DNA from: Candidatus Thorarchaeota archaeon | GTDB taxonomy: Archaea > Asgardarchaeota > Thorarchaeia > Thorarchaeales > Thorarchaeaceae | DNA length: 36,312 nt | Reading direction: 5' to 3' | Assembly: GCA_018238375.1 (NCBI GenBank) | Contig: JABCTJ010000168.1 | Span: 1-36,312 of the forward strand | Shown here: piece by piece, positions 516 through 36,312 of the stretch | How the letters are laid out: each line of letters opens with the position of its first letter | Position numbering within the stretch: position 1 is the first letter of the stretch | Notes under the pieces: generated by a model | What the model saw: the letters and a program-made list of their open reading frames with translations, nothing else | Told to the model about the DNA's origin: nothing | Database searches by the model: none | Made by a program: the position numbers and the translations under genes

Positions 516-1439
516 CTACGCTTCCGGTATGCCACCAGTTAGCTCCAGGAATATTTCCTCAATCGTGTGTGCGTTAGGCGTCTGAACAAACAGCTCCTCT
601 CGAGTGCCTCGTCCCACAACATCTCCTTCATTCATAATAACAAAACGATCACAGAGGCCTTCTGCAACTTCAAGAATGTGAGTGGATACTAGAATGGCTG
701 AACCTTCATCACGTAATTTTTTCAAGAGTACCTTTAGACTCCACGCTCCACGAGGATCAAGTCCGTATATCGGCTCATCCAGCGCAAGGATGTGCGGTGG
801 AGGTCTCACGAATATGCCCACTAGGAGAGTCCTTTGCAGGTTGCCCTTTGAGAGAGTACCGATATAGGCATCAAGAAGTCCGTTCAATTGGAATAAGTCT
901 ACATATTCCTTCATCCTGAGCGTGGCATCGATTTTCGGAATACGGTAGATTTTGGCGATGAATGTGAGATATTCGCGAACCTTCAGGTTCGGATAGCAGG
1001 TAGGTCTCTCAGGTATGTAGCCAAGCCTCTGTTTGGCTTTGAGTGGATGAACGCTCATGTTGAATCCATTCACCTGCACTGAGCCTTCTGTTGGTCTGAT
1101 AATCCCTGCAAGTATTCGCAATGTGGTTGTTTTCCCAGCACCGTTGGGTCCAACAAGGCCTACAATTTGGCCCGGACGCACAACAAGATTCAGGCCTCGC
1201 ACAGCAACAGTTTTCCCAAACTTCTTAGTCAAACCACTAATTTGAATAGCTAGATCGTTCAATCGGGTTTTTTTCCACGGAATCCCTTCACGATAATGTT
1301 CTTCGAGCTCACCTTGAATGATTTCCACGAGCAGATCACGTTTTACTTTTCGTTCCGTCAAAGACACGTCTAGCTGTCGAGCCAACCGGATTAGCTCATC
1401 ATTGTCCATTCGTTTAACGATATTCTTTACTGAGTTCAA
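516..1439 (-). CDS. ABC transporter ATP-binding protein with an extra N-terminal helical (SAP/Rho-N-like) extension
   Basis: Walker A GPNGAGKTT, signature LSKGNLQR, Walker B ILALDEP, H-loop STHILE; about 60 aa N-terminal extension before the ABC domain. Confidence 0.93.
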   Translation of the reverse strand: MNSVKNIVKRMDNDELIRLARQLDVSLTERKVKRDLLVEIIQGELEEHYREGIPWKKTRLNDLAIQISGLTKKFGKTVAVRGLNLVVRPGQIVGLVGPNGAGKTTTLRILAGIIRPTEGSVQVNGFNMSVHPLKAKQRLGYIPERPTCYPNLKVREYLTFIAKIYRIPKIDATLRMKEYVDLFQLNGLLDAYIGTLSKGNLQRTLLVGIFVRPPPHILALDEPIYGLDPRGAWSLKVLLKKLRDEGSAILVSTHILEVAEGLCDRFVIMNEGDVVGRGTREELFVQTPNAHTIEEIFLELTGGIPEA

Positions 1440-2572
1440 GATTTAATCCTCCTAAACCGCTTTTTCAGGCGCGATTCTAGTACGTAGATGATTGGAATGC
1501 TAATGTCTTGCTCATGGAGCGTAGGCAGTTCTGGCATTCTCAACTCCATTTCTCCTTCTCGCAACAATTGGTCTTTCTTCTTGATGAGCCAAAATCCAAT
1601 GAAAACCGAAATAGGAAGGGGAATGAATGCGCTGTTGGTCAGACCTAAGTTCACACCGACTCCGTTCAGAACGCTAATGAGCACGAGGGACACCAGCAAT
1701 ATCAGCCCAACCAGTGCAACTCTTTTCTGTGTGACCCGGTCCTCAAGGTACCTCAAAATTTCATGGGCAAAAAACACCTGAAGTCCGAGAACACCGAGCA
1801 TGAGAAAGCCAGCTGCCATGCTCCCGAGTTGGAAGCTAAGTAAAATACTGAACGGCTTATCCATAGTTCTCATCAAATAATAAAACTCGTAAAAAATGGA
1901 AGCAAATCCAACCAGCGGACTTGAAAAGCTTAGAGAAGATGTGTAGGTATCAGTAAGCAATCTGACTCCATAGGGCAGTACTAACGCGGCTAGAATCATC
2001 AGCTTGCTAACGCGGCGTGGCATATAGCCTGCAATTTTCAAATAAAGTCGGTCACGAATACGCTTGCTGTTTCCCGTTAATCTTCTGGGAAGACGTTTAC
2101 CTGATACGCGTTGCAAGGTCGGTATGAACACAAACAATGCAAGAAGAACTGTGACGAACCCTTGTAGAGACTGCCAGTACACTGAATCATATGCCCATCC
2201 GCCAGGCACGAACCAATACGAATAAGACACCAGAACTAGACAAATAAACGACACAACCATTGTTGCGGCGGCCAGCCTAGAGGGGGATTCTTCAGCTGAC
2301 ATAACGCGCATCCTATAGCAGAAGTAAAGACTTGGTCCCGCAACCACTAGAAGATTAGCTGCTGCTATCCAAGGGTTCAGTGAATTCAAGCTTGCAAGAA
2401 TTGGCATACCTGGATAGCGCCAGCTCCAAAACATGCCCCCAAGACGCACAACAACAAAATTGTCTGACCAGGCTCCAAACAAGATATTGTACGGAATGAG
2501 AGCCAAGATGATAACTTTGAACATCTGCACTGGCCAGAACGAACGCAGTTTTTCCCCTACCCGAGCTAGCAT
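1436..2572 (-). CDS. Multi-pass membrane protein, likely component of the adjacent ABC transporter
   Basis: 378 aa, many hydrophobic segments; stop overlaps the start of the ABC ATPase by 4 nt (ATGA), same strand. Confidence 0.7.
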   Translation of the reverse strand: MLARVGEKLRSFWPVQMFKVIILALIPYNILFGAWSDNFVVVRLGGMFWSWRYPGMPILASLNSLNPWIAAANLLVVAGPSLYFCYRMRVMSAEESPSRLAAATMVVSFICLVLVSYSYWFVPGGWAYDSVYWQSLQGFVTVLLALFVFIPTLQRVSGKRLPRRLTGNSKRIRDRLYLKIAGYMPRRVSKLMILAALVLPYGVRLLTDTYTSSLSFSSPLVGFASIFYEFYYLMRTMDKPFSILLSFQLGSMAAGFLMLGVLGLQVFFAHEILRYLEDRVTQKRVALVGLILLVSLVLISVLNGVGVNLGLTNSAFIPLPISVFIGFWLIKKKDQLLREGEMELRMPELPTLHEQDISIPIIYVLESRLKKRFRRIKS

Positions 2573-32009: not shown

Positions 32010-32051
32010 GGAAAAAAGAGAAAGGATGGAAGGAGCGCGACCAGCGCGCCC
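32010..32051 (-). terminator. GC-rich hairpin followed by a T-rich tract, end of the hydrogenase operon
   Basis: On the - strand: GGGCGCG-CTGGT-CGCGCTC (32051-32033), then tccttccatcctttctcttttttccc. Confidence 0.55.
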
Positions 32052-32064
32052 TTGCGAGGCTGTC

Positions 32065-32095
32065 AAGCCCAGTCCAGTCGTTTCCGACCGGGCCT
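32065..32095 (-). promoter_or_regulatory. Candidate SECIS element in the 3'UTR of vhuU
   Basis: - strand RNA AGGCCCGGUC-GGAAACGACUG-GACUGGGCUU: 10-bp stem (three G-U), purine-rich loop, immediately after the vhuU stop. Alternative inner fold GGUCG-GAAA-CGACU. Confidence 0.5.
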
Positions 32096-32248
32096 TCATC
32101 CGCCGCCAGTCACGAGCTCCTTCCTAACTATCTCGCGGCCCTCTTCATCGACAATGACGAGATGAGCGCCGCAGGATAGTCAGCAGTCATAGCACCGAAT
32201 AACCATCTCAATGATGTTCAGTACTCCTTCAGGTATTTCTTCTGTCAT
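32096..32248 (-). CDS. vhuU: VhuU-type selenocysteine-containing C-terminal fragment of the F420-nonreducing [NiFeSe] hydrogenase large subunit
   Basis: MTEEIPEGVLNIIEMVIRCYDC-TGA-LSCGAHLVIVDEEGREIVRKELVTGGG*; in-frame TGA at 32182..32180 at the first-Cys position of the DPCxxC..H ligand motif; starts just after the mvhA stop, and the mvhA ORF lacks this motif. Possible upstream in-frame ATG at 32254. Confidence 0.88.
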
Positions 32249-32266
32249 GATCATCAATTCTCTTGT

Positions 32267-33583
32267 CTAAGTCTTCACCATGGGTTCAGGAAGTGTAATC
32301 TTCTCGAGAATTTTATCCTCGAAGATTTGTTTCGCGGCAACCATTAACGACTTCTCGATGCCGGCAATATTGTTGTTCGTGGCGACAATGAGGTTCGCCT
32401 TGACCAGCATGCCCTTTTCGTCGGACGTGTAGTCATGAAGCAGTGTGCCTCGTGGAGCCTCAACAACACCAACGCCGTTGCCAGCCTTGGGTTCAACGTC
32501 AGAGAGCTTCACGTCCGTGCTCACAATCTCCGGGTCTTCTAGAAGCGTCTTGATCATCTCAGCAGCTTGCACCATCTCTACGATTCGAGCGTAGTGGTAT
32601 ACAAACGTGTGATGCGAAGGTCTCCCAACGAGTTCTCTCATCTCTTTCAGAGCTGCATCTGCAAGAGGTGTAGCCATCTTATCGGCTACATTGCACCGTG
32701 CGAGAGTATTCGCTCTCCAGATGCCCTCGGGATAGCCGACTGGTTTGTAGTAGATATGAGTTGCATAGGAGTGCTTGGCAACATGCTCGCCGTAGTACTT
32801 TGTATACTCGCTAGGCTTGAAGTTCTCTACAATCTTACCTTCAGGGTCCATCACGCGAATCTTGCCATCGTAGATATCATGAGTTCCATTGTTGGTCAAC
32901 CCGAGATAGTAAGTTGGAGTCACCGCTAGCTTTGTTATCACTTCAATGTATGAGTTGACAACGGTCTTGGCAAGGTCCACTGTCTTGTGGATATTCTCCA
33001 GCATTTCCGGGACCTTTGTTAGCCAGTCATCGCGTTCCTCTTCCTTCATAGCATACAGCATCCCGCCAGGAATGCCAGTCGTCGGGTGAATTGCCTTGGC
33101 CCCAATGGTCGTGCACAGTTCCTGACCAAACTCCATCAGCTTGATTGCTTGGACTGCAACATCAGGGAGATACTTGAGAACAGCAGCAACGTTCCGTACC
33201 GCTGGGCTCGCGAAGGGTCCAAAGACAAAGTCCGGAGCCGCAAGAGCGTAGAAGTGGATTGCATGAGATGAGAGCTGCTTCGCCTCAATCAATAGCCGCC
33301 TCAGTTTGATTGCGGCTGGCGGAGGTGTCACATCCCAAGCGGCCTCGACTGCCTTCAGTGAAGCAAGATGGTGTGGGATTGGGCATATGCCGCAGATCCG
33401 TGGAGCGATTCGTGGAGCCTCCTCCATTGGTCGCCCTTCTAGGAACTTCTCAAAGAACCGTGTACTGTTCACGTTGAACTGAATGTCCTTGACCTTGTTG
33501 CTAGGACCTAGTTTGATAGTCAATGTTCCATGGCCTTCGAGACGCGTCACTGGGTCAATGCGGATTATCTTCTCATTGGTCAT
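32267..33583 (-). CDS. mvhA: F420-nonreducing [NiFe] hydrogenase large subunit (VhuA/MvhA), lacking the C-terminal ligand motif
   Basis: IIRIDPVTRLEGHGTLTIKL, RICGICPIPHHLASLKAVE (L1 motif); ends ...MVAAKQIFEDKILEKITLPEPMVKT with no C-terminal DPCxxC. Confidence 0.96.
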   Translation of the reverse strand: MTNEKIIRIDPVTRLEGHGTLTIKLGPSNKVKDIQFNVNSTRFFEKFLEGRPMEEAPRIAPRICGICPIPHHLASLKAVEAAWDVTPPPAAIKLRRLLIEAKQLSSHAIHFYALAAPDFVFGPFASPAVRNVAAVLKYLPDVAVQAIKLMEFGQELCTTIGAKAIHPTTGIPGGMLYAMKEEERDDWLTKVPEMLENIHKTVDLAKTVVNSYIEVITKLAVTPTYYLGLTNNGTHDIYDGKIRVMDPEGKIVENFKPSEYTKYYGEHVAKHSYATHIYYKPVGYPEGIWRANTLARCNVADKMATPLADAALKEMRELVGRPSHHTFVYHYARIVEMVQAAEMIKTLLEDPEIVSTDVKLSDVEPKAGNGVGVVEAPRGTLLHDYTSDEKGMLVKANLIVATNNNIAGIEKSLMVAAKQIFEDKILEKITLPEPMVKT

Positions 33584-34503
33584 TTCGTCTTTACCTCCTC
33601 TCGCTTAATTCGAATTCCACCTAAGTGACTTGTTGGATAGGTGAATCTCCAAAAGGTGCCAAGTGGGTCAAGAACCTTCTCCGCAAGGACTTCTGGTTCA
33701 AGAGGTGCCATCGAGCCAAACATGGATATCGCTGCGGCCCCCTGGTCGGTTGTGATTGGCGGAGGTGGACCGAAACAGCCGCGGCATGTCGCCCCGTGAT
33801 TAACACACTGCCCTTCGCAGAGACCCCATGTTGCAGAACCAACACAGATGTAGCCCTGCTCAAGCAGGCACCTGTCAGGGTCCGCAATGCCCTCGAAGGG
33901 GCGAAGTATCTCTGTGATTGGGGTTTCCTTCCGCTCCCTGTCACAGTAATGACATACTGTATGGGGTGGCAACTCTATTTCCTTGCCTGTAAGCAGCGCA
34001 GTCAAGGCGGTCAGAATCAGCTTGGATGTCGGAGGACATCCTGGAAGGAAGATCTCGAAATCAACTATAGTACTGTTAGGTACCACAACTGGGGCAATCT
34101 CTGGAAGGTTCTCTGTCGGCACCTCGCCATCCTTGACTGTCTTGTTGTTTCGAAACTTGACTTCTAAGCACTCATCCAAAGTCGAGAAATTAGCAAGGCC
34201 TGGAATGCCTCCAAAGCAAGAACATGAGCCGAATGAGATCAGAATCTTGCACTTCGCTCTCATAAGCTTCAGCAGGTGAATGTCTTCTTCCGTTCGAGCC
34301 ATTCCTTCGTACAAGCCAACCGTGATTGACTTGTCAGGATAGCCTTCGAGGTCCTTGAGTTTAAAGTCAGCAACACATTGCCAATACTTGATATCAATCA
34401 ACGGCAGAACTGTTGCCAGATTGAGATGAATATCAATAAGGCTCTGGAAACAACCCCAACAGGAGCTACCTTGAGCCATCGCGATTGATGTAGGTTCTGC
34501 CAT
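33580..34503 (-). CDS. mvhG: F420-nonreducing hydrogenase small subunit
   Basis: SSCWGCFQSLIDIH, SFGSCSCFGGIPGLAN, FLPGCPPTS, CVGSATWGLCEGQCVNHGATCRGCFGPPP. Confidence 0.96.
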   Translation of the reverse strand: MAEPTSIAMAQGSSCWGCFQSLIDIHLNLATVLPLIDIKYWQCVADFKLKDLEGYPDKSITVGLYEGMARTEEDIHLLKLMRAKCKILISFGSCSCFGGIPGLANFSTLDECLEVKFRNNKTVKDGEVPTENLPEIAPVVVPNSTIVDFEIFLPGCPPTSKLILTALTALLTGKEIELPPHTVCHYCDRERKETPITEILRPFEGIADPDRCLLEQGYICVGSATWGLCEGQCVNHGATCRGCFGPPPPITTDQGAAAISMFGSMAPLEPEVLAEKVLDPLGTFWRFTYPTSHLGGIRIKREEVKTK

Positions 34504-34505
34504 CT

Positions 34506-34745
34506 TTAAACCTCCTTTAGAGAGTAGATCAACTCGTGGTTCTCTTCGCCTTTGATCTCTACGGCGCCCCAGCGGAGCATACCCATGAGGTTCCAGACTA
34601 CAAGGTTCTTGGCGAACTCCGTCTCCTCTGAGATCTTGGTCACTGTTGCTGGACCTGCCTTCAACACTTCTTCGATAGCCTTTCGCTGTCCGCGAACCTG
34701 GCCACGCTTCTGACTGAAAAACTTCGCAAACGAACTCATTTCCAT
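34506..34745 (-). CDS. Small winged-helix-like protein inside the hydrogenase operon
   Basis: 79 aa; QRKAIEEVLKAGPATVTKISEETEFAKNLVVWNLMGMLRWGAVEIKGEENHELIYSL wHTH pattern; tightly packed between mvhD and mvhG. Confidence 0.75.
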   Translation of the reverse strand: MEMSSFAKFFSQKRGQVRGQRKAIEEVLKAGPATVTKISEETEFAKNLVVWNLMGMLRWGAVEIKGEENHELIYSLKEV

Positions 34746-35182
34746 TCGCTCCTTAGAGGGCCAAGAGCCCTGACCTGCTCTACTATTGTTGTAACACCAT
34801 CAGCAAAGATTTGAGCCTCAGAGGCACTAGCCCACTGAAGCCGAATCCGCTCCGGGTTTATCCCGGCTTGTTCGATAGCCATCTTCATTATGGTCAGCCT
34901 TGCTCGAAGCTTCAGATTCCCACTAGAATAATGACAATCCCCAGGGTGACATCCCGAAACAAGAACACCATCAGCACCCATCTCCAGGGATGCAAGTATG
35001 AACTCGGGACTGATTCTACCGGTGCAGTTTACTCGTATGATCCTCGCGTTTGGTGGGTACTGTATCCTGCTGGTGCCTGCGAGATCAGCTCCAGCGTAGC
35101 TACACCAATTGCAACAGAATGCACCTATCTGCGGCTCCCACTTTTTCTTAGTCTGAACTTCCTTTTTCTCTACAGTAGTCAT
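34736..35182 (-). CDS. mvhD: F420-nonreducing hydrogenase iron-sulfur subunit
   Basis: IGAFCCNWCSYAGADLAGTSRIQYPPNARIIRVNCTGRISPEFIL, DGVLVSGCHPGDCHY. ATG at 35182 overlaps the hdrA stop (ATGA). Confidence 0.96.
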   Translation of the reverse strand: MTTVEKKEVQTKKKWEPQIGAFCCNWCSYAGADLAGTSRIQYPPNARIIRVNCTGRISPEFILASLEMGADGVLVSGCHPGDCHYSSGNLKLRARLTIMKMAIEQAGINPERIRLQWASASEAQIFADGVTTIVEQVRALGPLRSEWK

Positions 35183-36312
35183 TGGGGTTCGCCTCCCTCC
35201 AGTTGCGCTGGAGAACAAAGGTACGCCTCCACCATGGTCATGATCTGATTGTCAGTGGAATGATACATTACGATGGCGCTACTCGGACATGCGGCCGCAC
35301 ATGTGCCGCAACCGTGACACTTGGCCTCGGTGACGAAAGCAACAGACGGGTTAACAGTTTCGTCCATATTTATCGCGCCGTAAGGACATACAGTGACGCA
35401 CGTATGGCACGACGAGCATAACTCAGATAGCACATGCGACACCGTGGACTCTATCTCGACCTCTCCTTTGGCCATGAGTCCCACTGCCTTGGCAGCTGCT
35501 CCGCTTGCATCGATGACGGATTCAGATGCGTTCTTGGCGGCTTGCGAAGCTCCTGCTATCATTACACCCGCAGTATGCGTAGTCAACGGTGCGAGTTTGA
35601 TATGCTCAGGGTTGAAGAAACCGTCACCGCTTCTCGTGAGACTGAACATCTTCGCAGTTTCGGCGATGTCCTCTGGCGGAATCATCGCAGTGGCTAGAAC
35701 AAGCAAGTCCGGTTGGAATATCAGTTCCTGATCCGCGAGCACATCATGCCACTTCATATGTATCTTGCCATTCTTTACTATAACCGTTGGCTTCTCGTCC
35801 CTAGGGAACTTGCTAAAGACAACGTGTCGCTTTCTGGCTAATCGATAGAACTCCTCGTGACCTTTTCCATACGTCCTGATGTCTTGATAGAGGATGAGGA
35901 CTTCCTCAGTTCGTTCTCTAAGGTCTGCGGCAGCCTTTGATGTCGCGGTACAGCAGTAACGGGAACAATGTTCATGCCCCTTCACTCCGGGCTCACGCGA
36001 GCCTACACAGCCGATGAATGCAATCGTCTTCACTGGTTTTCCATCGCTCGGTTTCAAGAGCTGGTCGCTAGGAGGGAGCTCCTGAAGCTCCGCCAGCGTA
36101 ACGATATCAGGCGACTCGCCATAGGCGTAGTATCCGTAAGGTCGGAATGGTATAAATCCCGTGGCTACGATTACCGTGCCAATTTCGAATTTCTGTTTCT
36201 TTTTCGTCTTGAGATTCTCTACCGTTACTTCAAAGTTCCCTATGTAACCGTCAAATTCAACAACCTTGCTGTTTGTCAACGTCGTGATTCGCTTGTGTGC
36301 CTTGACATCCTT
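35179..36312 (-). CDS. hdrA: CoB-CoM heterodisulfide reductase subunit A-like flavoprotein, truncated at right edge
   Basis: VIVATGFIPF, IAFIGCVGSREPG..HCSRYCC, ELCSSCHTCVTVCPYGAI, CHGCGTCAAACPSSAI; frame stays open to the window edge (KDVKAHKRITTLTNSKVVEF...). Confidence 0.95.
   Translation of the reverse strand, partial: KDVKAHKRITTLTNSKVVEFDGYIGNFEVTVENLKTKKKQKFEIGTVIVATGFIPFRPYGYYAYGESPDIVTLAELQELPPSDQLLKPSDGKPVKTIAFIGCVGSREPGVKGHEHCSRYCCTATSKAAADLRERTEEVLILYQDIRTYGKGHEEFYRLARKRHVVFSKFPRDEKPTVIVKNGKIHMKWHDVLADQELIFQPDLLVLATAMIPPEDIAETAKMFSLTRSGDGFFNPEHIKLAPLTTHTAGVMIAGASQAAKNASESVIDASGAAAKAVGLMAKGEVEIESTVSHVLSELCSSCHTCVTVCPYGAINMDETVNPSVAFVTEAKCHGCGTCAAACPSSAIVMYHSTDNQIMTMVEAYLCSPAQLEGGEPQ

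Follow-up and report, generated by a model that had tools for sequence, protein, structure and literature searches.

A selenocysteine-type vhuU gene of a Thorarchaeota archaeon and a three-way junction model for its SECIS element

Subunits of the FrhA, MvhA or VhuU type that contain selenocysteine (Sec) are reported for 68% of the Asgard archaea that use Sec, and Thorarchaeia are among these (Huang et al. 2024, PMC11227280); VhuU proteins of ∼50 amino acids have been described in Atabey- and Freyarchaeia (PMC11291895). Asgard archaea carry eSECIS-like elements in which AUGA lies over the stop codon, a feature for which Mariotti 2016 is cited, and the frhA SECIS has the lower stem [U/C]GG_C[C/U][A/G] (PMC11227280). 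The methanogen SECIS differs in having a GAA_A kink-turn-like motif, and a lokiarchaeal vhuU SECIS in the 3' UTR was non-functional in Methanococcus maripaludis (PMC11881835).

Here we describe a vhuU locus in a 36,312-nucleotide stretch of DNA from a Candidatus Thorarchaeota archaeon (contig JABCTJ010000168.1), referred to as the window. The VhuU selenoprotein of Asgard archaea is already established, and the present gene is a further case, ordinary in kind. Standard annotation takes the vhuU UGA as a stop, and a hydrogenase subunit predicted to complete the active site is thereby missed. Sequence comparison documents the frame, its conservation, the Sec machinery of the genome and the covariation of the SECIS stems.

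The vhuU frame and its gene cluster

The split large subunit gene vhuA (mvhA) occupies positions 33583-32267 of the minus strand, on which all features of the window described here lie. As the initial annotation had stated, it ends at 32267 without the C-terminal ligand motif. The encoded protein covers positions 4-417 of the 418 positions of the VhuA model NF041785 (E 1e-152) and, because the model is spanned nearly end to end, we regard vhuA as complete for a split enzyme. Profile matches identified the hydrogenase small subunit gene vhuG (mvhG, 33580..34503) and a Cys form of mvhD (vhuD, FlpD; 34736..35218). With an hdrA2-like fragment (35179..36312) that is cut by the contig end, the cluster holds the group 3c complex gene set vhuA, vhuG, mvhD and hdrA. 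Sec was looked for in the HdrA fragment and MvhD of the window and none was found, the part of hdrA that is present having no in-frame TGA. Elsewhere in the genome, the sole strong TGA-flagged match to a Sec-type HdrA (contig C202) was rejected; it stops genuinely before an HdrC-like gene. Over ∼35 residues the hdrA fragment of the window is nearly identical to one located where contig C172 ends (L112), and the two contigs are either neighboring or paralogous.

Adjoining vhuA is a small separate open reading frame at 32248-32096, comprising 50 codons and a TGA stop at 32098-32096, with an alternative ATG start upstream at 32254. Its translation is MTEEIPEGVLNIIEMVIRCYDC-U-LSCGAHLVIVDEEGREIVRKELVTGGG*, where U stands for an in-frame TGA (32182-32180) that takes the place of the first metal ligand in D-C-U-x-x-C-x-x-H; the local motif reads RCYDC-U-LSCGAH. 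The initial annotation had placed this sequence in the next frame, which has to be corrected: it lies in the frame of vhuA itself, behind the vhuA stop codon TAG. The identification as VhuU and the split active site that had been proposed are borne out by homology to VhuU and to hydrogenase C termini. The frame aligns to the Sec-bearing chain 9sfi_M (27 residues) and to the ends of full-length MvhA and FrhA. Queried with Cys in place of Sec, it matched the 45-position VhuU model NF041786 with an E-value of 6e-15 and 54.7 bits against a cut-off of 70. This shortfall from the NCBIfam cut-off concerns a database score and no biological feature; the curated cut-offs for VhuU, and for PSTK (below), appear to have been fixed on methanogen sequences.

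The position of the in-frame TGA is strongly conserved. TGA occupies the Sec site in ∼130 short split orthologues from relatives and 228 genomes of the phylum, and TAA or TAG was found there in none of these ∼130 Asgard sequences. One locus (L067) has an extra TAA further downstream in the vhuU frame and retains the TGA at the Sec site. The TGA was invariant in 49 of 49 distinct sequences of a first set, and not one of the 47 other vhuU codons was invariant in a 45-sequence subset of it. The pN/pS ratio was 0.21 upstream of the TGA and 0.41 downstream, compared with 1.0-2.3 in shifted frames, showing that codons on both sides are under purifying selection. Three split copies (L083, L145 and L146) have Cys at the UGA position, reading DCCLSCSAF. 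These copies (L083 at 1304-1465, plus strand) also have Phe in place of the ligand-motif His (SCSAF). On the combined evidence of TGA conservation, Cys replacements, a SECIS element and Sec machinery, we conclude with high confidence that the frame is vhuU, encoding a split [NiFeSe] group 3c hydrogenase subunit in which UGA is predicted to be decoded as Sec at the first ligand, as had been proposed from the sequence at the outset.

Two other readings of the frame were weighed. The TGA might be a real stop, followed by an untranslated look-alike of a hydrogenase end or by a decayed gene. Translation table 11 does assign TGA to stop, the terminator of vhuU is itself TGA, and decayed vhuU copies exist in which SECIS and tail are retained and the head is gone (L135 and L226). 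Against this stand the purifying selection downstream, the invariant TGA, the intact motif and the presence of Sec machinery; judged by the substitution pattern, the reading is already refuted, and we consider it extremely improbable. Still less probable is that vhuA and vhuU form one gene in which suppression of the TAG yields a full-length large subunit. The shared frame behind a single TAG would allow this here, but across 44 pairs of the two genes vhuA ends in TAA, in TAG or, in a single case, in TGA, and all three frames are used by vhuU. Because stop type and frame vary in this way, vhuA and vhuU are two genes and not a read-through fusion. The initial annotation had also named what would count against a Sec-type vhuU, namely a full-length DPCxxC subunit elsewhere together with unconserved TGA flanks. 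A full-length large subunit does exist (G000:C49, DPCVSCSVH), with a small-subunit gene and one for an FAD/NAD-type protein beside it, but it is a different hydrogenase, probably of group 3b by resemblance, and the flanks of the vhuU TGA are strongly conserved.

The two decayed copies, L135 (G003:C35, 2695-2755) and L226 (G227:C279, 801-861), consist of an intact SECIS after a truncated vhuU of which only the C-terminal tail is left; they appear to be remnants of genes whose SECIS has survived.

Sec machinery and the residue before Sec

The search for Sec machinery that the initial annotation had called for was successful. In the Thorarchaeota metagenome-assembled genome (92.6% complete, 5.3% contamination), tRNA-Sec scored 56.3 bits (cut-off 47), SecS 459 bits (cut-off 225) and EFSec 273 bits (cut-off 242). 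A PSTK homologue scored 140 bits, under its curated cut-off of 290, and lies 36 bases from tRNA-Sec; all four are carried together on contig C255. SelD (contig C66) scored 208 bits (cut-off 125) and has its own in-frame TGA in the motif THGU-SCK. By eye and in the minimum free energy (MFE) fold, the SelD SECIS (L099) has a hairpin after it within an outer stem GAGGCCG/CGGCCUC.

The Cys that precedes Sec was taken in the initial annotation for an unusual replacement of the Pro in DPC. The replacement is present, but it is no oddity: among 116 TGA-type split Asgard loci the motif is DCU in 112, DPU in 2, DNU in 1 and DFU in 1, and on the strength of the 112 loci we regard DCU as an Asgard-wide feature. 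The split Cys forms read DCC in three of three cases, and the full-length large subunits DPC in six of six loci. The Pro before Sec of the solved methanogen VhuU (DPU) is not found here, and we do not count it as defining. A Cys-Sec pair is known as a redox center in mammalian thioredoxin reductase. By analogy, one might guess at a similar redox role for the pair in Asgard VhuU.

Architecture of the SECIS element

A eukaryote-type SECIS element overlaps the vhuU stop codon, with the sequence GGAUGA-AGGCCCGGUC-GGAAAC...-GACUGGGCUU-GA. Its AUGA/GA quartet, 10-bp stem and run of A residues agree with the Asgard eSECIS-like pattern of AUGA...AA(A)...GA and an upper stem of 7-15 bp at the stop. The match to the Rfam family SECIS_1 scored 20.9 bits, below the threshold of 35, and is by itself insufficient for a SECIS claim. 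From a comparative alignment, the element (32037..32113) is best modeled as a three-way junction of an outer stem P0, a helix P1 and a hairpin P2. The 5' strand of P0, GUGACUGGC (32105..32113), is formed by the final sense codons of vhuU and pairs with GCUGGUCGC in the 3' UTR (32037..32045). The AUGA of the quartet (32096..32099), whose UGA is the vhuU stop codon, is invariant in 35 aligned sequences. P1 (32063..32095) comprises the upper stem and an apical loop containing AAA (32083-32081), together with the quartet's 3' GA (32064-32063). P2 (32048..32060) is a 3' hairpin, GCCU-CGCAA-GGGC, recognized by its motif and complementarity.

The SECIS stem covaries in the 35 Thor-type sequences. In the Thor-type set of a wider alignment, 85.8% of cells were paired in P0, 86.8% in P1 and 96.9% in P2; both-side changes occurred at 14 of 24 pairs, with 72 double-change cells against 22.5 in shuffles. 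The Loki-type set gave 96.9, 95.8 and 94.2%, respectively, with both-side changes at 11 of 21 pairs and 54 double-change cells against 12.8. In both sets cell and covariation counts exceeded all 500 shuffles, which ignore relatedness among sequences, and sliding the partner strand reduced the paired cells to 27-50%. P0 and P1 covary in both sets. In 10 Thor-type sequences both members of the outer P2 pair have changed, but the inner pairs hardly vary, so that P2 is supported by preserved complementarity, motif and position more than by covariation.

Folding energies were less informative. The three-way junction appeared in 70 of 115 MFE folds, but the element as it stands in the window has another fold as its minimum (−38.7 kcal/mol versus −34.1 kcal/mol for the proposed fold), and the z-score of the SECIS fold is a modest −1.7. 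Support for the model therefore comes from comparison, not from folding energy. In the 2.5-Mb genome a single copy of the P2 motif CCYYGCAAGGG is present. A covariance model of P1 and P2 matched after a two-Sec mvhD and prx-like gene from a Loki-type genome. The Cys-type vhuU copies L083 and L145 gave no such match, and L146, the third Cys-type locus, is cut by a contig end and uninformative on SECIS presence. The occurrence at other selenoprotein genes and the absence at Cys-type L083 and L145 tie the element to Sec.

An alternative lower stem, GCGG/CYGC instead of P2, pairs in 93.6% of cells. It was set aside, as the changes are mostly one-sided, its 5' strand codes for Gly-Gly, and P0 accounts better for both lineages. 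A competing hairpin behind P2 was likewise rejected as weaker than P0.

A simple eukaryote-like SECIS of lower stem, internal loop and upper stem, with P2 incidental, would match the published model, which consists of core, upper stem, apical loop, internal loop and lower stem only (PMC11227280), and the near invariance of the inner P2 pairs leaves the covariation thin. The 94-97% paired cells of P2, the both-side changes of its outer pair in the 10 Thor-type sequences and the recurrence of the junction in the MFE folds speak for the three-way junction, and we consider the simpler element unlikely, although a serious competitor. That P2 and the tract behind it are a transcription terminator and no part of the SECIS seems more doubtful again. 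Thor genomes do have a pyrimidine-rich tract after P2, and in that region the competing hairpin has 77.6% of its cells paired. Against a terminator stand the single occurrence of the motif in the genome, the joint matches of P1 and P2 behind selenoprotein genes of the mvhD and prx-like types, the lack of P2 at the Cys-type vhuU copies L083 and L145, and the P0 pairing that encloses P2 in both lineages.

Two further observations concern P0 and P2. Genome G006 has two vhuU copies (L010/L093 and L007/L043), with P0 strands GUGACUGGC/GCUAGUCGC and CAGACCGGC/GUCGGUCUG; the change is compensatory at the paralogue level and also alters the protein from LVTGGG to LQTGGG. In three Thorarchaeota genomes a VhuU-type SECIS with P2 and the outer stem ACCAGC/GCUGGU lies 19-44 nucleotides behind cysS: L136 (G010:C60, 1668-1728), L137 (G006:C8, minus strand) and L138 (G021:C70, minus strand). 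No Sec codon was found at these loci in cysS, which ends in TAA or TAG, or in neighboring frames. A new selenoprotein, a relic or a regulatory use is possible.

Proposed mechanism and comparison with known systems

From the genes present we infer the following scheme for Sec insertion, assembly, catalysis and the role of the Cys before Sec. Along the archaeal/eukaryotic route, PSTK would phosphorylate Ser-tRNA-Sec, and SecS would convert the phosphorylated tRNA-Sec with selenophosphate supplied by SelD. EFSec would then bring Sec-tRNA to the UGA of vhuU, directed by the SECIS at the stop codon. The VhuU peptide is predicted to dock on VhuA so that the two share the Ni-Fe site, VhuU bringing in the C-terminal half with Sec, the Cys of DCUxxC and His, and VhuA the N-terminal RICGIC half. 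The ∼20 residues after the His may be cut off on maturation, a presumption drawn from the deposited methanogen VhuU chain, which stops right behind the His. The resulting VhuAGU-MvhD-HdrA complex would couple H2 to heterodisulfide and ferredoxin. The Cys before Sec might serve, for example, in a reversible Cys-Sec bond as an oxidized resting state.

To our knowledge, no SBP2 has been found in Asgard archaea. As a combined proposal, Asgard vhuU SECIS elements may be three-way junctions, with the kink-turn quartet at the P0-closed junction and P2 (CCC-YGCNN-GGG) as third arm; P2 or the junction may help to recruit EFSec for the missing SBP2, and a Cys-Sec bond may shield the hydrogenase. We offer this conjunction tentatively, its failure in some part being the likelier outcome. 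The wider comparison offers a SECIS model that is concrete and open to test in the lineage closest to eukaryotes, where SBP2 has not been found. If the Loki construct used in M. maripaludis (PMC11881835) left out the coding-region P0 strand, it was an incomplete element, which may bear on its failure.

Between the core and the lower stem, the text of PMC11227280 places neither a hairpin nor a junction; we found no description of P2 there, and P2 and the DCU rule are candidate new findings. The published frhA lower stem [U/C]GG_C[C/U][A/G] fits P0. With the Asgard SECIS of the same study the present element shares the AUGA overlapping the stop, the unpaired A run and the GA core.

Full-length MvhA, FrhA and other group 3 large subunits have the same C-terminal ligand motif (DPCxxCxxH) but are single chains with Cys at the metal and Pro before it. 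The Methanococcales VhuU (NF041786; PDB 9sfi chain M) is likewise a separate Sec peptide whose UxxCxxH completes VhuA. As deposited, that chain reads DPX, with X taken as Sec, and ends behind the His, whereas Asgard VhuU has DCU and ∼20 further encoded residues. With the known Asgard VhuU and FrhA proteins (PMC11227280, PMC11291895), the present gene shares the small Sec subunit of an F420-non-reducing hydrogenase and the archaeal Sec machinery, and there is no difference in kind. Added here are the DCU tally, the Cys-type split copies without SECIS, the location of the P0 5' strand in coding sequence, and P2; the interest of the locus lies in how its SECIS is built and in DCU as an Asgard-wide motif.
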